Positions 1 to 15,912 of a stretch of 64,000 nucleotides of DNA are shown one piece after another. The notes beneath the pieces are model-generated. The model was not told the origin of the DNA and did not search any database. It was given only the letters and a program-made list of their open reading frames with translations. This stretch comes from Nocardia sp. BMG51109 (lineage in GTDB: Bacteria; Actinomycetota; Actinomycetes; Mycobacteriales; Mycobacteriaceae): the NCBI RefSeq assembly GCF_000526215.1, contig NZ_JAFQ01000004.1, forward strand, positions 5,580,001 to 5,644,000, given 5' to 3'. The first letter of the stretch is position 1, and each line of letters begins with the position of its first letter. A program made the translations under genes and the position numbers.

Positions 1-300
1 ACGCGCTGCCACGGTCTTGTGCGTGGCCTCGGTCGTCGTCCGTCGTGTGGCTCGTGCACCAGCGAGATCGGTGATCGGGGTCGGCGGCACCGTGGTCCGT
101 TCGCCGGCGCGTGGACTGTGGTTGTTGATGTGCCGCCGCGGCATCGCTGCTTGCCCTCCTGTTCGGCTGCGCCGCCGCGCAGGAGCCGGGGATTCTCCGG
201 TCGGCGGTGTGTGGATGCCTTCCTCGGCCGTCCTGGAGTCGGCCGTGGACTCCTCGACGCCCCGTTGTCGGCTTGCCGCAGTCTCGGCGTCGTTGCCGTG

Positions 301-416
301 TTCGACACGTCGTTGTGCACTCACTGCGGCCGACCGGACAGCCCGACGCTCGCATCATCGACACCGTGTGTGCCTCCTGTTTCGCGGATACCGATCTTGC
401 TCACATCGACCCATAA
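301..416 (+). pseudogene. possible zinc-ribbon protein remnant with a frameshift
   Basis: Two short segments in different frames join into what looks like the end of a small zinc-ribbon protein. Positions 301-345 read FDTSLCTHCGRPDSP, and from about 346 another frame reads DARIIDTVCASCFADTDLAHIDP to a TAA at 414-416. The paired Cys-x-x-Cys motifs and the good fit after one frame change are the only evidence. The rest of 1-613 shows no convincing gene. No family is recognised, and chance cannot be excluded. Confidence 0.25.
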
Positions 417-613
417 CTACTATGCGGTGTCGGGTGGGGCGGCACACCGACCCGCAGTGCCCCTCAGGTGACCAGGTGTGCCGATTCGGCACGGCTCGTC
501 AGCATTGCGGCACAGGTGGCCGGTCCGTAGCAGAACCGAGCGTCGCAGACTGGCAGTATCGGTCGACCGATACCGGGGATCCGAAGGACTCATCGGAATG
601 GCAAGGGGGTGTC

Positions 614-1273
614 GTGGCGCCCACATCAGGGCCGGATGGTGTGGCTGCACGTGTCAGCACCGTGGAGATTCGCTCGTCCACAGAGTTCTCGTCCGAGCAT
701 GCGTGCGAGCAGTGGGAGGCGTTGGTCAGCAACATATTTGTGCCGGTGTCCGTCGAGCGTGTCGGGTCGGGTGAGTTCGTCGGTAGCGTCGCCGACGTCG
801 AATTCGACCGGTTCGGCATGTCCATGGTCGGAGGTAGTCCACAGCAGGTACGACGGACGCGGCGGCAGGTCGTGCGGTCGGGGGAGCAGTACCTGGTGGC
901 GATCATGCCGACGGCGGGGAGTTGCCGGATCGAGCAGCAGAACCGGGTGACCGTCACTGTCCCGGGTTCGATAACCTTCTGTGACACCAGCCGCCCCTTC
1001 ACCTGCCGGAGCGACCAATGGGGTGAGTCCGTAGTGGTACGTGCTCCGTTGCAGCACGTACTCGACGAGACCGGTCTGTCCGGTGACGAGCTGCCGACGG
1101 CCCTCTCGATTTCGGGTAGCAGTGCGGTCGGTGTGCTGACCCGATTCTTCTCGGGGCTGGCCGAACTGAACACCGTCGATATCGATCAGGCCGCCCAGTT
1201 GGCCGGACACGGTGCCGGACTGCTGAACTCGGCGGTGCTGCTGGCGGCGCGACAGCACATGCCGTCCGGGTAG
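614..1273 (+). CDS. AraC-type regulator, N-terminal domain only (truncated)
   Basis: The 219-residue product resembles the ligand-sensing N-terminal half of AraC-family regulators of the AraC_binding_2 type. It aligns along its length with the first ~220 residues of the full regulator at 2576-3550; both share IRS, EQWE, a GAVGV/SAVGVL stretch before an R-F-F motif, and a SAVLLA stretch near the end. It stops about 20 residues after the R-F-F region and lacks the ~100-residue helix-turn-helix half. The open frame runs further upstream, but GTG 614 is chosen because AAGGGGG lies 4 nt before it and similarity begins just after it. It may be a decayed regulator or a DNA-binding-free modulator. 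No HTH coding is seen in the 116 nt after its stop. Confidence 0.6.
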   Translation: MAPTSGPDGVAARVSTVEIRSSTEFSSEHACEQWEALVSNIFVPVSVERVGSGEFVGSVADVEFDRFGMSMVGGSPQQVRRTRRQVVRSGEQYLVAIMPTAGSCRIEQQNRVTVTVPGSITFCDTSRPFTCRSDQWGESVVVRAPLQHVLDETGLSGDELPTALSISGSSAVGVLTRFFSGLAELNTVDIDQAAQLAGHGAGLLNSAVLLAARQHMPSG

Positions 1274-2253: not shown

Positions 2254-2575
2254 CCACGGCCTCCCCGATAGCCTCCCCGATCGTAAAGCCGTCCCCCACC
2301 ACGCCACCGCGGCAGGTTGTCCGCGAACTCTCCAGGTACCCACTCCAGGCTGCCCAGCACGCCTCGGTCGGTGTTACACGAGCGAGGACGCGCATGGGGG
2401 CCGCAGGCGTTCGGCGAGAAGCGTGGGCTGCGGTGGCGGGGGAGGTGCCAGGTACGTGATCCGGCTGTATACCCATCGGTACCGAGGCGTGATTTGTCGG
2501 TGTGGTGTTGCCGAAGTTGTGATAGGAGGCTGGATTTCGGCGCCGGTCCGACGATCCCGGTGCAAGAATTGTCGC

Positions 2576-3550
2576 GTGGGTGACGCCCCGAGGAACACGC
2601 TCGTCGACATACGATCGACACGTGAGCTTGCGCCCAAGCGGGCGCTCGAGCAATGGGAGAGTGCGCTCGCCGAGTCCTACTACCCTATGGGGATCAGTAA
2701 TCCGCAGGTGGAGAGGTTTCACTGCCGGATCAGGGCTGTCACCTACGGTGTCGTGGGCGTCTCGTTGATCGAAGGCACGCCGCAATGCGTGTACCGGTCG
2801 CGGCGGCATATGCATCGGCCCGACGAACAGTTTCTGTCGGCGCCCTTTGCGATCGCCGGCCGCGGCACCGTGGAAGGGTCCGGCCGGACGAGCGCGTTCG
2901 AGCCGGGCGGGCTACTCCTCTACGACAGCGCCCGGCCGACGGCTACGCACTTCAACAGTACGTGGGGAATAATGTCCATGCGGGCGCCGATGTCCAGCAT
3001 CGTGGAGCGGACCGGGGTGCCGATCGGTCGGCTGCCGATCAATGTCCGGATCCCGACCACCGGTGCGGTCGGTGTGATCAAGCGGTTCTTCCGGGATCTG
3101 CTGGAGGTGCAGCAGAGCGATCCGGCGGCCGCGGCGGTGCTGGGCGAGCACGCCGTCGACTTGATGGCCTCGGCGGTTCTGCTGGCGTGCGGGGCCCGGC
3201 TCACCGAACGGTCGGCGCAGGCGCTGGCCCGGCAGCAGGCACTGGCGTTCGTGTGGAGTCATCACACCGAACCGGACCTCACCATCGACCAGATCGCGCG
3301 GGCGTGCGCGGTGTCGCGGCGCACCCTGTATCGATTGTTCGAGGATGTCGAGGGTGGTGTCGGCGCGATGGTGCGGCGGCGGCGCATCGGTACCGCCCAG
3401 GCGTGGCTCTGCGCGGACGGTGTCCGGTCGCTCGAATCGATCGCCGCGGCATGCGGTTTCGCCTCGGATCGGCATTTCTACCGCGTCTTCAAGCAGGAGA
3501 CGGGAATGACGCCGGGTGAGTATCGGGCGTTGCAATACCCGGGGCGGTGA
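2576..3550 (+). CDS. AraC-family transcriptional regulator
   Basis: A 324-residue regulator. Residues ~20-215 form the AraC_binding_2-type sensor domain. The last ~100 residues form the two-helix-turn-helix AraC DNA-binding domain, with TIDQIARACAVSRRTLYRLF as the first HTH, and ESIAAACGFASDRHFYRVFK plus the end motif TGMTPGEYR as the second. It is intact, unlike the homologous truncated gene at 614-1273. GTG 2576 is a low-confidence start: it gives normal length but has no clear ribosome site, and the frame extends upstream to 2423. AraC-type regulators accompany dar genes in Pseudomonas, so control of the operon at 7.1 kb is a reasonable but unproven guess. A short GGGCGG/CCGCCC hairpin (3542-3556) spans its stop codon. 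Confidence 0.82.
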   Translation: MGDAPRNTLVDIRSTRELAPKRALEQWESALAESYYPMGISNPQVERFHCRIRAVTYGVVGVSLIEGTPQCVYRSRRHMHRPDEQFLSAPFAIAGRGTVEGSGRTSAFEPGGLLLYDSARPTATHFNSTWGIMSMRAPMSSIVERTGVPIGRLPINVRIPTTGAVGVIKRFFRDLLEVQQSDPAAAAVLGEHAVDLMASAVLLACGARLTERSAQALARQQALAFVWSHHTEPDLTIDQIARACAVSRRTLYRLFEDVEGGVGAMVRRRRIGTAQAWLCADGVRSLESIAAACGFASDRHFYRVFKQETGMTPGEYRALQYPGR

Positions 3551-7133: not shown

Positions 7134-7388
7134 ATGCGGATCGACGTTTCAGACGTTCGTCAGAATATCGGTGAGTATCTGAAAACCCATTACGACATCG
7201 ACCTGGACCAGATGGATTCGGACGCAAATCTGGCCGATATCGGTGTCGATTCGCTCGGTGTGCTCGCCGTCGCCTCTGTGATCGAGAACGACTATGGGAT
7301 CTCGCTGGACGACGAACGAATCGCATCGGTGCGCTCCTTTTCGGATCTGCTGGACCTGATCCGGATCAAAGCCGCAGAAAACGTCTGA
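7134..7388 (+). CDS. acyl carrier protein (DarC-like)
   Basis: An 84-residue acidic carrier protein. The phosphopantetheine attachment serine is S40 in the motif DIGVDSLGVL, and the usual four-helix pattern surrounds it. It should carry the fatty acyl or ketoacyl chain in the pathway encoded by the operon it starts. The start is supported by AGAAGG 8 nt before the ATG. The next gene, a ketosynthase III, begins 10 nt after the stop. Dedicated carrier proteins of this kind (DarC) accompany DarA and DarB in dialkylresorcinol clusters. Repeat copy C lies 139 nt upstream, so this is the likely promoter-proximal gene of the nine-gene operon. Confidence 0.92.
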   Translation: MRIDVSDVRQNIGEYLKTHYDIDLDQMDSDANLADIGVDSLGVLAVASVIENDYGISLDDERIASVRSFSDLLDLIRIKAAENV

Positions 7389-7397
7389 GGGGATGCT

Positions 7398-8528
7398 GTG
7401 GAAGCCTATATCACCGCGACGGGCCGGTTTCTTCCGGGTGAACCGATTTCGAATGACGAGATCGAAGACTACATCGGAAAAGTCGGTCGTGCGTCTTCGG
7501 ATCTACGTGACCAGATCGTACACAACAGCGGCATCAAGACGCGACACTACGCGATCGACAAACAACAGCGCACACTTGTGTCGAATGCGTCGATGGCCGC
7601 CTCTGCAGTGCGCAACGCGGTCGAACGCGCAAGCATCGTGCCAGGGGATGTCGAAATGCTGGCCGCAGCTACGACACTGCCGGATCTGATGGGTCCGGGG
7701 CACGCCAGCATGGTACACGGCGAGCTGGGGTTTCCGCCGATGGAGATCATTTCCACACACGGCATCTGCAGTTCGGGAATGATGGCACTGAAGAGCGCCT
7801 ATCTGCAGGTGAAGGTGGGAGAGAAACGGACCGCGGTCGCGGTCGCCAGCGAGTTGGCCTCACGCGGCTTCAAAAGCACCCGGTACGAGGATATCAAGGT
7901 GCCTGCCGATGATGGCTCGCTGCCGATGGAGACGGCCTTCCTGCGCTATATGCTCTCCGATGGCGCTGGTGCGGTGGTCGTGTCGGCGAACCCGCCCCCG
8001 GAGAGGGTCAGCCTGCGTATCGACTGGATTTCGCTGACATCGTACGCCGATACTGAGAAGGCGTGTATGTATTTCGGCAGCAGGTCCAATGAGGCGGAAA
8101 AGTGCTGGGCCGACTATCCAAATGCGGCGGCGGCAGCCGCCGATGGTGCACTGGTGGCCCGGCAAAAATTGTCGTTGCTGCCGCACCTGGTGCGTGTCGG
8201 AATAGATGAATACGAGCGACTGGCGGCTGCCGGAAAATTCGACCCGGACTCCGTCACGTGGTTCCCGGTGCATTATTCGAGTGAACGTATGCGCTCGATG
8301 CTCATCGGCGAGTTGAAGCGCCGAAACGTGTCGCCCGCCCGCCCGGAGGTGTGGTACAGCAACCTCACGCGGGTCGGCAATATCGGCAGCGCCAGCATCT
8401 ACGTCATCCTCGACGAAATGGTCACCGAGGGACTGGTGCGTCCGGGCGACACGCTCCTGTGCATGGTTCCCGAATCCGGCCGATTCGCCATCTCGTTCAT
8501 GCATTTGACAGCGGTGGTCCCGCAATGA
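7398..8528 (+). CDS. beta-ketoacyl-ACP synthase III, DarB-like
   Basis: A 376-residue thiolase-fold ketosynthase. The Cys-His-Asn triad is intact: C124 in THGICSSGMMALK, H292 in FPVHYSSERM and N328 in VGNIGSASIY. The N-terminal half follows the pattern of DarB enzymes (FLPGEPISNDEIEDYIG, then HNSGIKTRHYAIDKQ and a SNASMAASAVR helix). DarB joins two ACP-bound chains, a beta-ketoacyl and a 2-enoyl unit, to form a cyclohexanedione precursor of a dialkylresorcinol. GTG 7398 follows a GAGGGGA ribosome site. The 3' end overlaps the DarA-like gene by ATGA. General FabH housekeeping function is unlikely given the neighbours. Substrate chain lengths cannot be read from the sequence. Confidence 0.87.
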   Translation: MEAYITATGRFLPGEPISNDEIEDYIGKVGRASSDLRDQIVHNSGIKTRHYAIDKQQRTLVSNASMAASAVRNAVERASIVPGDVEMLAAATTLPDLMGPGHASMVHGELGFPPMEIISTHGICSSGMMALKSAYLQVKVGEKRTAVAVASELASRGFKSTRYEDIKVPADDGSLPMETAFLRYMLSDGAGAVVVSANPPPERVSLRIDWISLTSYADTEKACMYFGSRSNEAEKCWADYPNAAAAAADGALVARQKLSLLPHLVRVGIDEYERLAAAGKFDPDSVTWFPVHYSSERMRSMLIGELKRRNVSPARPEVWYSNLTRVGNIGSASIYVILDEMVTEGLVRPGDTLLCMVPESGRFAISFMHLTAVVPQ

Positions 8529-9430
8529 CCGGAGCCGTCGTCTTCGAGTACACCCAGACCGGCCAGCTGGCCGAGGTCGTCGACGCACTGATCGGTCCGC
8601 TGATCGATTCCGGATGGCGGGTCCGGCGGGTGCCGGTTGCTCCGGCGAACCCGTTCCCGTTCCCGTGGCCGCTCACCCGCTTTTTCGGAGTGTTTCCGGA
8701 GTGCGCGGACGAGCGTGCGACGGTACCGCTGGCCGGAGACGGCCGCGAAACTCGTTCCGAGCCCGACGAATTGGTGATCTTGGCCTATCAGGTCTGGTAT
8801 CTGGCGCCGTCACTGCCGGTGCGCGCGCTACTGACCACGCGTGCGGATGCCTTCGCGGGGCGCGATGTGCTCACAGTGATCGCTTGCCGCAACATGTGGT
8901 ACTCCGCGGCGGCGGAGGTGCGGAGGCGGCTGAACGATGCGGGCGCCAGGCATCTGGGCACCGTCGCAGCCACTGATACTCGGCCGCAGGCGATCACCTT
9001 CGTCACCACCCTGCGCTGGCTGCTGGTCGGCAACCGCGACGGCCGACTCGGACGTGCCGGGGTCGGTGCGGAGGAACTGGCGCGGGTGCGGGCCGTGGGC
9101 GAACGGATCGCAACGACCGGATCCTCGGAGGAATTGGCGAAGGTGCTCGCCGATACCGATTCAGCACCGGTGGAGCCGGTGATCGCTGCGGCGGATCTGC
9201 TGGCCGGCGCCATGTTCCGCCGCTGGGGATCGGTCGTGCGGTGGGCCGCGGACCGCGGGACCCCCGCCCGCACAGCGGCGCTAGCCGCGTTTGTCGGCTG
9301 GTTGGGAGCGAGTATCGCGATAGGGCTGCCGTCGTTGGCGCTGGCGCGGCTGGTGGCCGGACACCGCTTCGACGCGGTCGTGACCGCTCGAGTGGTAGCG
9401 GCGATCGAACCGAGAGGAGCGCGCGAATGA
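8525..9430 (+). CDS. dialkylresorcinol condensing enzyme-like flavoprotein (DarA-like)
   Basis: A 301-residue flavodoxin-like protein with the signature blocks of the DarA family: EYTQTGQLAEVVDALIGPL at the N terminus (FMN-binding start), PFPFPWPLTRFFGVFPE, LVILAYQVWYLAPSLP, and VLTVIACRNMWYSAA. DarA completes aromatisation of the DarB product to the resorcinol. It overlaps the DarB-like gene by ATGA and the next gene by ATGA. The residues after ~210 include an A/G/L-rich stretch (AALAAFVGWLGASIAIG) that could be membrane-associated. The assignment rests on remembered family motifs. A generic flavodoxin or NADPH:FMN reductase would not carry the PFPFPW and CRNMW blocks. Confidence 0.82.
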   Translation: MTGAVVFEYTQTGQLAEVVDALIGPLIDSGWRVRRVPVAPANPFPFPWPLTRFFGVFPECADERATVPLAGDGRETRSEPDELVILAYQVWYLAPSLPVRALLTTRADAFAGRDVLTVIACRNMWYSAAAEVRRRLNDAGARHLGTVAATDTRPQAITFVTTLRWLLVGNRDGRLGRAGVGAEELARVRAVGERIATTGSSEELAKVLADTDSAPVEPVIAAADLLAGAMFRRWGSVVRWAADRGTPARTAALAAFVGWLGASIAIGLPSLALARLVAGHRFDAVVTARVVAAIEPRGARE

Positions 9431-11142
9431 CGGTCCCCGTTGCGATCGTCGGTGGTGGCCCGGCCGGCCTGGCGATGGCACATTGCCTCGGCCATTACGG
9501 CGTGGAAACCATAGTGCTGGAACGTCGTTCACAGCCGTCGGCACATCCGCAGGCGACTATGGTCAACGCGCGCACCACCGAGATCTTCCGCGAACTCGGG
9601 CTGCTCGATGCTGTTCTGGCCGAGTCCACCAGTCTGGAGAGTGCCGCACGTATCCGGTTCAAGCGGGCGGTGGCAGGTCCCGAACTCGGCTGCCTCGAAT
9701 TGGTGGAGTCGACGGACAAGCTGATGCGCCTGACGGGACAGAGTCCAACGTTGCCGGTCATCTGCCCACAGAATCGCCTGCAGCAGGTCCTTGCGGGACG
9801 GCTACGTGACCGGCCTTCGGTGAGCGTCTGCACCGGGGCGGACGTCGTGGAGCTACGGCCGGAAGATGACCGGGTCGACCTGGTCTACCGTTCCGACAGC
9901 ACCACAGAGCACCATCTGCGGGCGGAGTATGTGGTGCTCGCCGAGGGCGTCCACGGCCGGTTGCGACAGACCGTCGGCATCTCCGGGACAACTGCGTCCA
10001 CCCTGGGCACGCTGCTCGATATCCACTTCCGGGCGGACCTGCGGCCGCTGCTCGACGGTATCGACAGTGTGCTGACGTGGTTGATGAACGACCTGGTACG
10101 AGGCGTACTGATCACCGTCTCGCCCGACACCGACGAGTGGCTGTTGGAACTCCCGTGCAGGAGCAGCAATTCAGAGCACGATCCGCGTACGCTCCTCCAA
10201 GCCGCACTGGGAGTGCCCGTCCACACGGCAGAGCGGTCCGCCGTCCCGGCCGGAGAACCTGCCGTGGCGGTCGAAATTCTGTCCGCCCGCAGCTGGACGA
10301 TGGCAACGACACGAATCGATCATTGGGACGACCCCTCGGGGAGGGTCCTGGTCGTCGGGGATGCGGCGCACACGTTTCCGCCGACCGGTGGGTTCGGGAT
10401 GAACACGGGAATTCAGGACGCTCACAACCTTGCCTGGAAACTGGCCGGGGTAGTGGAGGGCTGGGCGCCTGCGCAACTGTTGAGCAGCTACGAGAACGAG
10501 CGGCGCCCGGTGGCCCGGTTCAACGGCGAGCAGAGCGAGCGAAACGCACACGCTATCGAGAAGTTCGGTGACCGAGCCGCCGAGCTGACCGGTGCGGAGC
10601 ACTTCGATGCGCTGACCGAGCGGGCACGAAGGGAACTGGCAACCGGCATCGAGGCACAACGACCGCATTTCGACTTCTCCGGACAGGCCCTCGGATTCCG
10701 GTACGGTGCAACAACTGTCGTCAAGGACGTGGTGAACTACCTCCCCTGCGTCGAACCCGGTTGTCGCGCACCACATTTCTGGTTACGACGCGCGGACCGC
10801 ACACTGGTGTCCACGCTCGACCTTCCGGGCACCGAGTTCGCCGTCGTCGCGGGCACAGCGGCCGCCGAAATCTGGCTGGACGCAGTTGGATACGTGCGTC
10901 TGATGAATACGGTGCCGGTGCAGGCAGTGATCGTCGGCACCGCCGACGACGATGCCGAACTCACCGATGACTCGGGGCGCATGCTCGGCGCCTACCGCTT
11001 GCGCGACGGGGGCGCCGTGCTGCTGCGGCCGGACGCGCACGTCGCGGCCGTACTGCCCGGCGTCGATCCGTACAGCGAACTCGTCTTCGCCGTGATCGCG
11101 GCCGTGACAACAGATTCGACAAGAGAGGTGATCAGGATATGA
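9427..11142 (+). CDS. FAD-dependent aromatic hydroxylase (group A, PHBH fold)
   Basis: A 571-residue monooxygenase. The dinucleotide-binding motif IVGGGPAGLAMA is at residues ~7-18, and the second FAD motif GDAAHTFPPTGGFGMNTG lies near residue 320. The length and the C-terminal ~150 residues (after NYLPCVEPGCRAPHFW) match the thioredoxin-like domain of polyketide and phenol hydroxylases such as PgaE, RdmE and MhpA. It should use NAD(P)H and O2 to hydroxylate an aromatic ring, here most plausibly the resorcinol made by the DarA/DarB pair. ATG 9427 overlaps the previous stop by ATGA, and its own stop overlaps the next start in the same way, so translation is coupled. Substrate is inferred from context only. 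Confidence 0.87.
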   Translation: MTVPVAIVGGGPAGLAMAHCLGHYGVETIVLERRSQPSAHPQATMVNARTTEIFRELGLLDAVLAESTSLESAARIRFKRAVAGPELGCLELVESTDKLMRLTGQSPTLPVICPQNRLQQVLAGRLRDRPSVSVCTGADVVELRPEDDRVDLVYRSDSTTEHHLRAEYVVLAEGVHGRLRQTVGISGTTASTLGTLLDIHFRADLRPLLDGIDSVLTWLMNDLVRGVLITVSPDTDEWLLELPCRSSNSEHDPRTLLQAALGVPVHTAERSAVPAGEPAVAVEILSARSWTMATTRIDHWDDPSGRVLVVGDAAHTFPPTGGFGMNTGIQDAHNLAWKLAGVVEGWAPAQLLSSYENERRPVARFNGEQSERNAHAIEKFGDRAAELTGAEHFDALTERARRELATGIEAQRPHFDFSGQALGFRYGATTVVKDVVNYLPCVEPGCRAPHFWLRRADRTLVSTLDLPGTEFAVVAGTAAAEIWLDAVGYVRLMNTVPVQAVIVGTADDDAELTDDSGRMLGAYRLRDGGAVLLRPDAHVAAVLPGVDPYSELVFAVIAAVTTDSTREVIRI

Positions 11143-11666
11143 CCGAGTCCTTGGACGTCGAGGCCCTCGAGGGCGCCATTGCGCTGGCGACCCGAACCGG
11201 GAAGGCCAGCCGCGAGCAGATACAGGACCTGCTTTCCGGTGAACGTGCCCGGGTGCGTGCCGTGGTGGAGGTGCTGCCGGCGCCGGAGCTGGATTGGGCA
11301 TTGGGAACCGAGATCGGTGAGCAGGCGCTCCGCAACGCGTTCGCGCTCATGCCGGCCTACTACCGGCCCGGCGGCTTCGACACCCCGGTCACGGTGCGTT
11401 ACGAGGTGACTCGCAGCGCCGGCAACCCGGTGGAACAAGACGTGGTGTTCGGTCCCGACTTCTGCCATGTCCGCGAGGTCGATCCCGCAGTCGAACCGGA
11501 TCTGCGCATATCTCTCGACGCGATCGGATTCACCCGTATCGCCACGGCCCTGGTGCGCGGCCTGGAACTCATGATGCGCGGTGAACTGCGGGTGCAGGGC
11601 AACGTGCAGGTGGCGATGAAGATGGAAACCTTCTTCGGCCTGGCCGACCCCGGGGCAACCCGATGA
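11139..11666 (+). CDS. SCP2 sterol-carrier-like lipid-binding protein
   Basis: A 175-residue protein whose C-terminal ~100 residues have the SCP2-like pattern, including a DLRISLDAIGFTRI segment followed by MMRGELRVQGNVQVAMKME near the end. SCP2 domains bind lipids or hydrophobic ligands and have no catalytic residues. In this operon it could carry the hydrophobic pathway intermediate or product. It overlaps both neighbours by ATGA. No signal peptide or membrane segment is present, so it is cytoplasmic. Confidence 0.72.
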   Translation: MTESLDVEALEGAIALATRTGKASREQIQDLLSGERARVRAVVEVLPAPELDWALGTEIGEQALRNAFALMPAYYRPGGFDTPVTVRYEVTRSAGNPVEQDVVFGPDFCHVREVDPAVEPDLRISLDAIGFTRIATALVRGLELMMRGELRVQGNVQVAMKMETFFGLADPGATR

Positions 11667-12904
11667 GCGCGCGACGCGTGGTCATCACCGGTATCGGCCT
11701 GGTGACTCCGATCGGCATCGGCACCGATCCGTTCTGGAAACGCCTCGTCGACGGCGTCAGCGGCGCACGCCGCGTCACTGTCTTCGACCCCTCGTTCAAC
11801 GATGTCCAGATTGCCGCGGAGATACCGGATTTCGACCCAGGACAATGGCTGGAATATAAAGATGTGCGCCGCTTCGACCGAGTCGGCCACCTTGCGACGG
11901 CCGCGTCGGATCTGGCTCTGGTCGACTCCGGCCTCGACGGCCTCGACCGCGACGAAATCGCCACCGTCATCTCCAGCGGCCTCGGCGGCGCCGGGACGGC
12001 TATGACCACAATCCGGGCGCAGATGGTGGGGAAGACCGTGTCGCCGTTGTTCATTCCGATGGTGATGGCGAACTTCTCCGCCTCCACCGTTGCCTTCCGG
12101 CACAGACTCGGCGGGCCCAGCTATGCCCCGCTGAGCGCGTGCGCATCATCGGCCGACGCGGTCGGGCAAGGCTACCGAATGGTACGCGAAGGCCACGCCG
12201 CCGCGGCTGTGGTCGGTGGTGCCGAAGCCCCGGTGACTCCCGCTGTGCTGGCCGGGTTCACCAGTATGCGGGCGCTGTCGAAGCGCAACGACGACCCCCA
12301 ACGGGCGGGGCGGCCCTTCTCGGCCGACCGCGACGGGTTCGTCCTCGGCGAGGGCGCCGGAATACTGCTGCTGGAGCCCCTGGACTCGGCGCGGACCCGC
12401 GGCGCACACATCTACGCCGAGGTGTGCGGCTACGGGCCGGTGAATGACATCCATCATGTTACCGCCCCGCGAGCGAACGGCGAACGCGCAGCCAAGGCGA
12501 TGATGCTGGCCATGTACCAGGCCGGCGTCGGCCCCGCCGAGGTCGGCTACATCAATGCGCACGGCACCGGCACGCAACTGTCGGACCCGGCCGAAACCCG
12601 GGCCGTGCACCGGGCCTTCGGCGAATACGCCTGCACCGTGCCGATCAGCTCCACCAAACCGATGACCGGACACATGCTCGGCGCGACCGGAGCAGTGGAG
12701 ACCGCGATCTGCGCGCTGGTACTCGAACGCGGCCAACTGCCACCGACCATCAACTATACCGAGCCGGATTCCGAATGCGATCTGGATTACGTACCGAACA
12801 CCGCAAGGACCACGAGAGTCGATGTGGCGCTGTCGAATTCGATCGCCTTTGGCGGCCACAACGTGACCCTCGCCCTGCGCCATGTCAACGACAGCGAGGA
12901 CTGA
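11663..12904 (+). CDS. beta-ketoacyl-ACP synthase II (FabF/KAS II type)
   Basis: A 413-residue ketosynthase with the Cys-His-His triad intact: C160 in PLSACASSADA, H300 in INAHGTGT and H337 in KPMTGHMLGATG. It begins RRVVITGIGLVTPIG as in FabF. No chain-length-factor partner is adjacent, so this is not a classical type II aromatic polyketide pair. It probably elongates the chain that feeds the DarB-like enzyme. The start overlaps the SCP2-like gene by ATGA, and the next gene begins 1 nt after the stop. Confidence 0.9.
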   Translation: MSARRVVITGIGLVTPIGIGTDPFWKRLVDGVSGARRVTVFDPSFNDVQIAAEIPDFDPGQWLEYKDVRRFDRVGHLATAASDLALVDSGLDGLDRDEIATVISSGLGGAGTAMTTIRAQMVGKTVSPLFIPMVMANFSASTVAFRHRLGGPSYAPLSACASSADAVGQGYRMVREGHAAAAVVGGAEAPVTPAVLAGFTSMRALSKRNDDPQRAGRPFSADRDGFVLGEGAGILLLEPLDSARTRGAHIYAEVCGYGPVNDIHHVTAPRANGERAAKAMMLAMYQAGVGPAEVGYINAHGTGTQLSDPAETRAVHRAFGEYACTVPISSTKPMTGHMLGATGAVETAICALVLERGQLPPTINYTEPDSECDLDYVPNTARTTRVDVALSNSIAFGGHNVTLALRHVNDSED

Positions 12905-12905
12905 G

Positions 12906-13379
12906 ATGGAACTGACCCGAATCGGCACCGTCACCGCGAACCTGAAACCACCCGTGATGATCGGACCCGGCCCCCACGGTTTGCGGATATTCGTCGAGAT
13001 CCTCGACGGAGTCTTGGAGGGAGATCCGAATGTCACTGCAGTACAATCGATCACCGGAAAAGTGTTGTCCGGCGGCGGCGACTGGGCACTGATCGGCGCC
13101 GACGGCTGGGTGCGATTGGACGTGCGGGTACAGTTCCAGACCGTCGGCAGTGGCGTGATCTATGCCAATTTCCCCGGCCTCCTCGAGATGAACGACAGGG
13201 TTCAGCAGGCGTTCTCCGAGGGCTCGGCAACAGATTTCGGCGACCAGTACTTTCGAGTGACACCCAGACTGGAGACCGGTGACAACGACCTTGCTTGGGT
13301 CAATCACACCGTTTTCGTCGGTGAGGGTCGGTTCATCGAGGGATTCGGCCTGCGATACAACATGTTTCGGGTGGGGTGA
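12906..13379 (+). CDS. DUF3237 family protein
   Basis: A 157-residue protein matching DUF3237: a GPHGLRIF motif near residue 25, a SGGGDWALIGADG segment near residue 60, and the characteristic end VGEGRFIEGFGLRYNMFRVG. The family has a small beta-barrel fold and no established reaction, but members occur beside aromatic-compound genes. GAGGA lies just before the ATG, which follows the ketosynthase stop by 1 nt. Its role here could be binding or cyclising an aromatic intermediate; this is inference. Confidence 0.75.
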   Translation: MELTRIGTVTANLKPPVMIGPGPHGLRIFVEILDGVLEGDPNVTAVQSITGKVLSGGGDWALIGADGWVRLDVRVQFQTVGSGVIYANFPGLLEMNDRVQQAFSEGSATDFGDQYFRVTPRLETGDNDLAWVNHTVFVGEGRFIEGFGLRYNMFRVG

Positions 13380-13435
13380 GATTCCGGTTCGGAAAATTCT
13401 GAAGACTTCGAAAATTGATGACAAGAGGTAATTCG

Positions 13436-14497
13436 ATGGCTACTGTACTGACTGTGATCAGGCATCTGGTGCCGGCACCGTCGATGCGGGACATGAAATT
13501 CGCCGACCGCGGTTTCCCGGTAACCGCGAACGCAATGAGCCGACTGCTCGAGGGGGTGCCGAGGGCGGTAATGGAAGGTTTCGAATACGGTGCCGATATC
13601 ACCGACCCGGACGAGGTGGCGCGTCGGCTGGAGTGGGTCGACCCGCACTACCGGGGTCTCGCCTACGAGGGGGCCTTTGCGGCCCTGGCGATTCGAGATG
13701 CGATGGCGTTCGGCAGGACTCGGCTCGCCGAGGAATTCATGCGCGGTCCCGGCGAACCGTACTCCCTCCTCGCGTACATAGGCTACGGGCTGGTCATGTC
13801 ACGCCTGCCGCGCCGGATGTGGCAGCAGGCGATACCCCGGCTCGACTCCAACCCCCTGGTCGAGCAACTGCACTGGCTGGCCGTCGACGGCTACGGATTC
13901 GACCGCGCATTCTTCGACCCACAGCGCTGGCTGATCCGGCGGCAACGGCCGCCGCAGCACCGCTGGGCCGGGGACGACACCCATTTCGCGCCCGTGTTCG
14001 ACCAGGGCATCGGCCGGGCACTGTGGTTCTTCCACGGCGGAGACGCCGAGGCGGTAGCTGCCGCGGCCATGCAGTTCGATCCGGACCGACGCGCCGACAT
14101 CTGGAGCGGAATCGCCGCCGCCGCAACCTATTCCGCAAGCCCGGACAGGCCGGGACTGGAGACGCTGATCCGCGAGTCCGGCGCGTACGCCGCCGACCTC
14201 GCCGTCGGTGCGGTGATGGCCACCGCAGCCCGCCGGCACGCCGACCATGTACCCGACGGCACCGCCCTCGCCTGTGAGCTGCTGTGCGGGGATACTGTTG
14301 CCGTCATCGGGGAGCTGGCGGAAGCCGAGGCCGAGCCGCCGGCGGATCCGCAGGGCGGACCGGAGTACGCGCAGTGGCAAGCCCGGATCCGCGCCCGGTT
14401 CACCGACACCGCGGCAGACCGGCAGGACAGCCCGGCCGGGCAACGGCCGGACGTCGTACCCACCCACGCCTCGGACGCGGATGTGACGCGGTCATGA
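13436..14497 (+). CDS. DUF1702 family protein (seen in enediyne and related clusters)
   Basis: A 353-residue protein with DUF1702 hallmarks: YRGLAYEGAFAALAIRDAM near residue 75, GPGEPYSLLAYIGYGLVMSR, WLAVDGYGFDRAFFDP near residue 150, and FDQGIGRALWFFHGGDAEAV near residue 200. Members sit in enediyne polyketide clusters and other secondary-metabolite loci, without a proven reaction. AGAGG 7 nt before ATG 13436 sets the start. A 56-nt gap separates it from the DUF3237 gene, and its stop overlaps the UbiB-like gene by ATGA. The low-complexity acidic tail after residue ~310 (EAEAEPPADPQGGPE) is probably disordered. Confidence 0.78.
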   Translation: MATVLTVIRHLVPAPSMRDMKFADRGFPVTANAMSRLLEGVPRAVMEGFEYGADITDPDEVARRLEWVDPHYRGLAYEGAFAALAIRDAMAFGRTRLAEEFMRGPGEPYSLLAYIGYGLVMSRLPRRMWQQAIPRLDSNPLVEQLHWLAVDGYGFDRAFFDPQRWLIRRQRPPQHRWAGDDTHFAPVFDQGIGRALWFFHGGDAEAVAAAAMQFDPDRRADIWSGIAAAATYSASPDRPGLETLIRESGAYAADLAVGAVMATAARRHADHVPDGTALACELLCGDTVAVIGELAEAEAEPPADPQGGPEYAQWQARIRARFTDTAADRQDSPAGQRPDVVPTHASDADVTRS

Positions 14498-15912
14498 CGG
14501 CCGAACGGGTTCCCGACCGTGTCACATCGACGTTCACCGAGACAGGGCCCGGAGAGACCGGACCACCGATGGAGCGGTTCGGCCCGCGTGAACTGGTCCG
14601 GACCGCGGCAGTGGCCGGTACGCTCGGCGGCGCGGTCGGCCGGCGGATGGGCCTGCGGTTCGGGCGGTCTCCGCGGGACGCGATGGATGCCCGGGCCCGG
14701 GCACGGGTCACTGCAGACGGCGTGGTGGACGGATTCCAGGCGCTGGGCCCGATGTTCGTCAAACTCGGCCAGCTGATCGGCTCCTCGCCCGGAGTGTTCC
14801 CGAGCCCGCTCGCGGATGCCTGCCTACGCTGCCTCGACGACCTGCAGCCGTTCTCCGCAGCCGAAGCCCGCGCCGTGATAGAAGCCGATCTGGGGCAACC
14901 GATGTCGGCCATGTTCCGCGATTTCGAGGACGAGCCACTGTCGGCGGCCTCGGTGGCGCAGGTACACGCCTGTGTACTCGCCGACGGCCGCGAGGCGGTG
15001 ATGAAAGTGCAACGCCCGGGCATCGCCCGTCGCATGATCGTCGACCTACGAGTGGCATGGAAACTGGCCACCCTGCTGGAGCGGCGATACGAGTCGGCCC
15101 GTATCGCCAACGCCGTCGGCGTCGCCCACGACCTGTACCGATCCACGATCACCGAGCTGGACTTCCGGGCCGAGGCAGACAACCAGGCGAGGATCCGGGA
15201 GAACCTGTCGACGTTCGGCGACAACGACGGCGTCGTCATACCGGAGGTGTATCCACGGTACTGCGGCACCCGCACGATCTGCATGCAGCGCGTTCACGGG
15301 GTGCCATTGGACCGGTTCGACACCGTACGTTCGACGCATCCGAATCCCGAGCTGCTGATTCGACGACTGGTGAAGGCATGGATGGAAAGCGTGATGGTGC
15401 ACGGACTGTTCCACGGCGACGTGCACGCGGGAAATCTTTGGCTACTGCACGACGGCCGGCTGGCGATATTGGATTTCGGCATCGTCGGCACCATGCCACG
15501 GGCGTGGCGCGCACTACTGCAGGCGATGTTCCACGCCAGCGCCATCGACGGCGACTACACCCCGGTCGCGCGGGCCCTGCGAGAACTGGAACTGTTCGAG
15601 GACCACAACGCCGACGACGCCGCGATCGGCGCGCAGTTGGCGATCGTGCTGGGCCCGCTCCTGTCCGGCGAACTGGCGCATTTGGATTTGGGTACGCTCA
15701 CCGGGCAACTGGTCGAGTTCGGCCGTCGACGTGGCATGATCGGCCCCCAACCGCTCATCCTGATGGGTAAACAACTCAGCTATTTCGAGCGCTACGCAGT
15801 AGCCCTCGCCCCGCGCTGGCGCCTGGGCAGCGACCTTTACCTGTTCCGCAACATCTTCCCTGCCGCCGTCACTGCCGCAGCTGCCCGCGCGGGTACGGAC
15901 CTTCCCGACTGA
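14494..15912 (+). CDS. ABC1/UbiB/ADCK-family atypical kinase-like protein
   Basis: A 472-residue member of the UbiB family. Motifs in order are FVKLGQLIGSSPGVFP (KxGQ extension, near residue 88), AASVAQVHACVL (A-rich loop), AVMKVQRPG (catalytic Lys), MVHGLFHGDVHAGNLW (catalytic loop) and ILDFGIVG (metal-binding DFG). UbiB-type ATPases act on or extract prenyl and other lipid intermediates at membranes, as in quinone biosynthesis. Here it closes the operon and could help a lipophilic phenol reach membrane enzymes. No C-terminal membrane pair is obvious. It overlaps the DUF1702 gene by ATGA. Confidence 0.87.
   Translation: MTAERVPDRVTSTFTETGPGETGPPMERFGPRELVRTAAVAGTLGGAVGRRMGLRFGRSPRDAMDARARARVTADGVVDGFQALGPMFVKLGQLIGSSPGVFPSPLADACLRCLDDLQPFSAAEARAVIEADLGQPMSAMFRDFEDEPLSAASVAQVHACVLADGREAVMKVQRPGIARRMIVDLRVAWKLATLLERRYESARIANAVGVAHDLYRSTITELDFRAEADNQARIRENLSTFGDNDGVVIPEVYPRYCGTRTICMQRVHGVPLDRFDTVRSTHPNPELLIRRLVKAWMESVMVHGLFHGDVHAGNLWLLHDGRLAILDFGIVGTMPRAWRALLQAMFHASAIDGDYTPVARALRELELFEDHNADDAAIGAQLAIVLGPLLSGELAHLDLGTLTGQLVEFGRRRGMIGPQPLILMGKQLSYFERYAVALAPRWRLGSDLYLFRNIFPAAVTAAAARAGTDLPD

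Follow-up and report, generated by a model that had tools for sequence, protein, structure and literature searches.

Nine genes on the + strand of Nocardia sp. BMG51109 appear to combine dialkylresorcinol formation with a ubiquinone-style oxidation module. They occupy positions 7134-15912 of a 64,000-nucleotide stretch (the window; C4:5580001-5644000 of the 8.79 Mb genome) and encode, in this order, an acyl carrier protein (ACP), DarB- and DarA-type proteins, a flavin monooxygenase (FMO), an SCP2-fold protein, a FabF-type ketosynthase (KSII), a DUF3237 and a DUF1702 protein, and an ABC1/UbiB-like protein. With moderate confidence we propose that the operon makes a 2,5-dialkylresorcinol lipid whose ring is oxidised by FMO and the SCP2 protein to a dialkyl-hydroxyquinol or hydroxybenzoquinone, because the gene set unites parts of DarB/DarA, resorcinol-to-quinone and ubiquinone-hydroxylation systems. 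The original prediction had confined itself to the ACP-DarB-DarA core at 7134-9430, the start of the nine-gene run, and had foreseen a resorcinol lipid. Its three open reading frames (ORFs) are present where it placed them, and the DarB and DarA homologues support resorcinol chemistry; however, the span was drawn too short, and the pathway probably does not stop at a plain resorcinol lipid, because the conserved block also contains a hydroxylase and an SCP2 gene.

The observed basis of the proposal comprises the genes (Table 1) and their overlaps, the catalytic motifs, two predicted folds and a six-gene block that recurs in 16 actinobacterial loci. ATGA overlaps are found at the junctions DarB/DarA (8525-8528, as originally described), DarA/FMO (9427-9430), FMO/SCP2, SCP2/KSII and DUF1702/ABC1. 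The remaining gaps are short, with 9 bases between ACP and DarB, 1 between KSII and DUF3237 and 38 between DUF3237 and DUF1702 (starts at 12906 and 13418 being assumed). Based on these overlaps and short gaps the nine genes are treated as one unit, and they are presumably co-transcribed. The ACP would take the role of DarC; a PP-binding protein is also encoded 3' of darB in a Pseudomonas dar locus (L061).

Table 1. Genes of the nine-gene run in the window, and fused ORFs of related Nocardia loci
Feature	Coordinates	Strand	Evidence
Acyl carrier protein, 84 aa, DSL serine motif	7134..7388	+	PF00550 E 7.3e-10
DarB/StlD-type ketosynthase, 376 aa, GTG start; C124, H292, N322	7398..8528	+	NF005293, NF053539, StlD 5gk0, triad, tree
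DarA homologue, 301 aa: flavodoxin-fold domain 1-205, helices 218-294	8525..9430	+	
FAD-dependent aromatic-ring hydroxylase (FMO), C-terminal Rng_hyd_C domain, 571 aa	9427..11142	+	PF01494 E 3.6e-75, PF21274 E 2.5e-6
SCP2-fold protein, 175 aa, likely lipid carrier	11139..11666	+	
FabF-type ketosynthase (KSII), 413 aa; SACAS, NAHGTGT, TGH	11663..12904	+	TIGR03150 502.8 bits, cut-off 493.75
DUF3237 protein; alternative start 12882	12906..13379	+	PF11578 E 2.1e-34 on translation from 12900
DUF1702 protein; start 13418 or 13436	13418..14497	+	PF08012 E 6.1e-99 on ORF from 13415
ABC1/UbiB-like atypical kinase/ATPase, 472 aa	14494..15912	+	PF03109 E 4.3e-57; TIGR01982 260 bits, below cut-off 487.55
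DarA-FMO C-terminal ORFs	L035:9962-11260, L038:9977-11233, L040:9956-11407, L041:9959-11248, L046:9956-11332		

Conservation of gene order provides the link between core and oxidation genes. Thirty actinobacterial loci were mapped by tblastn (22 from genome contigs, the window, two plasmids, and loci of genomes G174, G085, G686, G624 and G588; a third plasmid and G597, G606 and G621 were left out of the map). The block ACP-DarB-DarA-FMO-SCP2-KSII occurs in one order and on one strand in 16 of the 30, with hosts in Nocardia, Streptomycetaceae (plasmids included), Micromonosporaceae and Pseudonocardiaceae. A close FMO match over both domains together with SCP2 and KSII is present in 16/30 loci, in the same order and on the same strand in 16/16, and SCP2 is encoded in exactly these loci and in no other of the 30. 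As L020 and L021 are near-identical, the 16 loci are not all independent. Among 57 non-actinobacterial dar loci, FMO was matched in six at E 1e-3, well in L076 (30%, E 2e-37) and weakly in five, of which four span short N-terminal stretches. SCP2 was matched in none of these 57 loci, 7 of which are under 12 kb.

The occurrence of dar genes in an actinomycete, to which the original prediction had drawn attention, is real and not peculiar to this organism. A scan of genome contigs seeded with ACRNMWY and [IV][LF]AY[QP]VWY confirmed 85 stretches, of which 80 were retained; actinobacteria account for 22 of the 79 loci taken from it. Because of these seeds, conservation at the corresponding places of our 82-row alignment partly reflects the selection, and DarAs that diverge more were missed. 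Within the genus, 12 of 118 genomes (the window's among them) gave a DarA match; at least four of these appear to be identical with genomes of named loci. Of 201 family genomes, 13 gave a match; three of these matches, among them that in the window's genome, are strong, and ten are weak and partial in length, at 25-40%. Two of 396 phylum genomes matched as well, one being the own genome, as did 3 of 72,556 plasmid records, all from Streptomyces, two of which were read. What merits attention is not the organism but the variant gene set in which a hydroxylase and an SCP2 protein are conserved.

Solved relatives of the FMO in the PDB include RubL, GrhO5, RdmE and 2-hydroxybiphenyl 3-monooxygenase, several of these relatives being named phenol or aromatic-polyketide hydroxylases. 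FMO and KSII are 44-48% and 51-57% identical, respectively, to cluster partners in other families, and are thus nearer to these than to their best full-length paralogues in the own genome (34-35% for FMO, 44% for KSII); other paralogues attain 64% in short GD-motif stretches. The SCP2 protein has no sequence match to solved structures and was recognised by a fold match of its predicted structure.

DarB-type enzymes perform a Michael reaction and then a Claisen reaction. In the pathway we envisage, KSII and ACP would supply a β-ketoacyl-ACP, which DarB would join to an α,β-unsaturated acyl unit to give a 4-carboxy-2,5-dialkylcyclohexane-1,3-dione, the class of DarB product reported in PMC5515871. 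Aromatisation would then be carried out by the flavodoxin-like DarA, termed DAR-aromatase in PMC3949708 and here probably attached to the membrane via its tail. In the next step FMO may hydroxylate the ring, possibly with decarboxylation, to a 3,6-dialkylbenzene-1,2,4-triol, which would oxidise to a 2-hydroxy-3,6-dialkyl-1,4-benzoquinone; because the two free positions of a 2,5-dialkylresorcinol are equivalent, one hydroxylation product is expected. The SCP2 protein may bind the hydrophobic substrate and keep it available to FMO, a role comparable to that of UbiJ with ubiquinone intermediates. A helper role of the ABC1/UbiB-like protein is possible in the Nocardia form; this is the weakest link of the scheme. 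Precedents are found in PMC6747719, where ubiquinone hydroxylation involves FMOs, the intermediate-binding SCP2 protein UbiJ and the ATPase UbiB, and in PMC9927152, where an alkylresorcinol is converted to a benzoquinone in S. griseus and polyketide quinones serve as electron carriers in mycobacteria and Streptomyces.

Several observations weigh against the proposal. The FMO carries AEG in all 14 aligned rows at the place where its relatives have the DG motif, and its chemistry may therefore differ. In the fold comparison of the SCP2 protein UbiJ is not the top row, other SCP2 structures matching better. SCP2 was not found in 14 of the 30 loci, and the oxidation step is therefore not universal. 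The window DarB and three other actinobacterial DarBs that were scanned stay below both NCBIfam cut-offs for this family. ABC1 was matched in the Nocardia form only among the 30 mapped loci, while ABC1 matches occur in 118/118 genus genomes and close copies are common elsewhere; the two non-dar copies inspected adjoin lipase/esterase genes, not quinone genes. Finally, an ATP-binding cassette (ABC) transporter pair is missing from the window (13379-13418). Such a pair follows DUF3237, in some cases between DUF3237 and DUF1702, in six genus relatives (L024, L032, L033, L034, L052 and L146). In a whole-genome search the nearest own-genome pair (63% and 52%) was located at C4:5336049-5337559, about 245 kb away; no other query gene was matched in the 20 kb around it, and it therefore looks like a paralogue.

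The genes that the Nocardia form adds were also followed through the genus. DUF1702 was matched in 41 of 118 genus genomes, and the six with at least 46% identity all have DarA 5-7 kb upstream. The next-best match (42%) is without DarA, and the DarA genomes G588, G621, G624 and G669 have DUF1702 matches of 36% or less only. No solved relative of DUF1702 was found by sequence; the DUF3237 protein matches three structures, which are uncharacterised or UPF0311. ABC1 is located 3' of DUF1702 in four mapped genus relatives; at this place L146 has a match to an AMP-ligase, and the contig of L034 does not extend that far. A UbiB-type helper as part of the core was rejected, as it is unmatched in mapped loci outside the genus, and the score below the UbiB cut-off limits the likeness of ABC1 to UbiB to one of the works-like kind.

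A rather unlikely alternative is that the dialkylresorcinol stays a resorcinol, with FMO tailoring a side chain (by epoxidation or Baeyer-Villiger oxidation) or an ester partner, and the SCP2 and DUF3237 proteins only carrying or exporting the lipid. RubL and GrhO5, which are among the closest solved FMOs, act in complex polyketide tailoring, and loci of the Streptomyces type additionally encode a P450, several of them also an LLM-class F420-type oxidoreductase. In addition, the product of the Pseudomonas dar genes is a dialkylresorcinol according to PMC6403133. On the other hand, several solved FMO relatives are named phenol or aromatic hydroxylases, and the resorcinol ring that the core would make is itself an aromatic phenol. 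Moreover, SCP2 is found only together with FMO.

The DarB-like identity on which the original prediction relied is upheld. The protein matches the StlD/DarB model NF005293 with 375 bits (E 3.4e-112) and the DarB model NF053539 with 321 bits, the cut-offs of 450 and 550, respectively, not being reached; FabH-type models score at most 93.4 bits (E 1.3e-26 or weaker). The ketosynthase of L022 likewise falls below both cut-offs, and that of Pseudomonas locus L061 exceeds the first only. Given these scores, the window DarB was filed as a divergent branch and not as a member of the NCBIfam-defined subfamily. Its best solved sequence is StlD (5gk0; E 7.1e-74 over residues 3-373), a match that is not due to chance. 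Cys124, His292 and Asn322 align with StlD, and this triad is present in 82/82 aligned rows, StlD included.

The phylogenetic comparison suggested originally was made for DarB as a quick tree of 86 rows, i.e., 82 DarB/StlD sequences and four FabH-type (KSIII) paralogues of the own genome. The window DarB sides with the DarB/StlD rows, which are split from the KSIII rows with a support of 100 in the Shimodaira-Hasegawa-like approximate likelihood ratio test (SH-aLRT); because the outgroup branches are long, the root is unsure. One side of a branch with SH-aLRT 99 holds 30 actinobacterial rows and one row from a Pseudoalteromonas plasmid. The window DarB groups with five rows of its genus (SH-aLRT 96) and StlD with two Pseudomonas rows (SH-aLRT 94). 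DarB thus belongs, by its sequence, with Gram-negative DarB and not with FabH-type enzymes. StlD/DarB-type ketosynthases without DarA matched beside them are encoded on a Pseudoalteromonas plasmid (L022:14992-16092), next to an iron-containing redox enzyme, and on a Prevotella plasmid (L023:7986-9122), next to a TetR regulator.

The DarA homologue contains the four motifs quoted in the original prediction. It has no match in Pfam at E 0.01 and none in NCBIfam at E 1 (HMMER filters drop most matches above about 0.1), and the grouping with flavodoxins or NADPH:FMN reductases that had been named as the contrary outcome was not seen, as no such model was matched in these scans. Its full-length relatives are genes adjoining darB: its tblastn alignments with genes of the 57 non-actinobacterial loci show 26-40% identity, with E values from 3e-47 to 1e-29 (relative to that search's candidate stretches only). 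A DarB match is present in 50 of these 57 loci and in 22/22 actinobacterial genome-contig loci, and in every case it lies within 529 bases of DarA. Pseudomonas and Flavobacterium loci served, by gene content, as stand-ins for a characterised DarA sequence. Structure prediction, likewise suggested originally, yielded a flavodoxin-fold domain (residues 1-205, TQTGQ at 10-14) and a tail of helices (218-294) with a hydrophobic segment. Such a segment (Kyte-Doolittle at least 1.6) is present in the tail of 59/60 DarA rows vs 6/60 in the first 200 residues, and DarA is probably attached to the membrane by this tail. An aromatase role of the protein is suggested by homology. L027-L031 (from G158, G178, G113, G148 and G188) contain DarA-like ORFs that are more remote, aligning partially at 26-29%; no DarB match was found in these stretches, where a ketosynthase-acyltransferase (KS-AT) polyketide synthase and ABC ATPases were matched.

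That DarB and DarA make another cyclised product (a cyclohexanedione or pyrone) on which FMO then acts is quite improbable. The sub-cut-off scores of DarB and the separate branch of the actinobacterial DarBs would fit such a change, and pyrones are made by another class of head-to-head ketosynthases (PMC4578411). However, the catalytic triad of DarB is conserved, DarA is retained with DarB in all 30 actinobacterial loci mapped, and Pseudomonas darA mutants make no resorcinol (PMC6403133). That an ACP happens by chance to lie beside a common FabH-type ketosynthase and a protein of the flavodoxin or NADPH:FMN reductase kind, a view for which the flavodoxin fold of DarA might speak, was rejected as extremely improbable given DarA homology without a flavodoxin family match, the bit scores and tree of DarB, and a neighbourhood conserved across families in the mapped loci.

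The mapped loci fall into five forms. The first is the Nocardia form of the window. The second, in Streptomyces, Streptacidiphilus, Paractinoplanes, Dactylosporangium, Actinosynnema and Saccharopolyspora, has the six-gene core and, after it, a P450 match and further genes. In the third, Mycolicibacterium-type form (7 loci), a KS-AT-ACP polyketide synthase and an AMP-ligase are matched after DarB-DarA (L025:10826-15729, the one locus of this form to which Pfam was applied), and 6/7 loci have an FMO match of 29-32% somewhere in the locus; this form is a different type of dar cluster in mycobacteria-like genomes. Five named Nocardia species have the fourth form, with divergent DarB and DarA genes and with DarA in an ORF of 418-483 aa that continues in-frame into FMO residues ~440 to 571, the C-terminal domain, with the FAD domain missing. 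Pfam runs on two of these ORFs gave Rng_hyd_C in L038 (E 1.2e-5, below cut-off) and none in L035. Judged from the reading frames, these fusions are a direct link between DarA and FMO; further matches in these loci are to a KS-AT polyketide synthase and to an amine-oxidase-like protein. The fifth form comprises the more distant L147 and L148, of which L147 has KSII and is without FMO or SCP2. In Streptomyces diastatochromogenes (L059:10001-13828) FMO, DarA and KSII are each in several pieces, due to either decay or assembly errors. The linear Streptomyces plasmids L020 (L020:11331-33119) and L021 carry the six-gene core, which in L020 is near genes annotated as phenylalanine aminomutase, prephenate dehydratase, DAHP synthase, chorismate mutase, dehydratase and further ACPs; these neighbours suggest an aryl starter.

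It is tempting to speculate, as a tentative possibility, that actinobacteria possess a second, type-III-polyketide-synthase-free route to a membrane benzoquinone, in which a membrane-made, head-to-head DarB/DarA resorcinol is oxidised by a ubiquinone-style module (FMO, SCP2 and, in Nocardia, the UbiB-like ATPase) to 2-hydroxy-3,6-dialkyl-1,4-benzoquinone acting as a redox or respiratory lipid, with a core that travels on Streptomyces plasmids. If true, dialkylresorcinol chemistry would recur among actinobacteria instead of being a speciality of Gram-negative bacteria, this branch being wired to quinone formation, and Nocardia and Streptomyces would have a new class of lipoquinones in addition to menaquinones and polyketide quinones. 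The compact operon would also be a test case for an SCP2 protein feeding a flavin hydroxylase outside ubiquinone synthesis.

The core resembles the dar cluster of Pseudomonas chlororaphis (darABC, 2-hexyl-5-propyl resorcinol), in which DarA, DarB and an ACP are encoded together as well; DarA and DarB of Pseudomonas loci L060 and L061 are each 37-39% identical to the window proteins. By contrast, the order is ACP-DarB-DarA in the window and DarA-DarB-ACP in P. chlororaphis, and the core of the window, unlike the P. chlororaphis cluster, is followed by FMO, SCP2, KSII, DUF3237, DUF1702 and ABC1. AraC regulators control dar genes in Pseudomonas. The window has an AraC-type regulator gene upstream at 2558-3550, 3.6 kb from the operon, the preceding ORF having a 34% tblastn match (window 17-1273 and 2423-3550); a role of the AraC gene as operon regulator is unsupported, as it is unmatched in mapped relatives.

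Flexirubin and arcuflavin clusters, which combine aryl polyene and dialkylresorcinol genes (PMC3992019 and PMC3949708), have DarA and DarB in common with the window, whereas no ammonia-lyase, dehydratase or second KSII that could serve a polyene is encoded among the nine products. The Nocardia aryl-polyene family was rejected as identical with this cluster, since its occurrence in 82/101 genomes, reported in PMC7413640, makes it too widespread (12/118 here). StlD of Photorhabdus (isopropylstilbene) is the nearest solved sequence to the window DarB and has the same triad, yet lies outside the actinobacterial DarB branch. In the open-licence literature no paper naming DarA, DarB and Nocardia together was found. 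A Streptomyces metabolomics table lists 2-hexyl-5-methylresorcinol (PMC13127372), and a survey of lichen actinomycetes a resorcinol gene-cluster family (PMC10134820); to judge from these entries, such compounds and clusters are already annotated in actinomycetes.

With the ubiquinone hydroxylation machinery (UbiI/H/F, UbiJ, UbiB) the operon shares an FMO encoded with an SCP2-fold protein, whereas its ABC1 protein, unlike UbiB, stays under the UbiB-family cut-off. Own-genome searches beyond the window revealed three Chal_sti_synt_C matches (C4:3840949, 4494826 and 3854143), so that a polyketide-quinone route via a type III polyketide synthase may also exist here, and ketosynthase matches that begin about 30 kb past the right window end (C4:5674400-5715044); the very long open frames that hold them reach 4542 aa and probably belong to modular polyketide synthase genes. 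The closest parallel in predicted logic is offered by the pkqA-C polyketide quinone and S. griseus phenolic-lipid operons, where a resorcinol lipid is converted to a benzoquinone by a co-encoded oxidoreductase (PMC9927152). Unlike these operons, the window operon has an SCP2 gene and no methyltransferase gene, and no type III polyketide synthase is among its nine products: the ring would be formed from two acyl chains by DarB and DarA, and would carry two alkyl chains.

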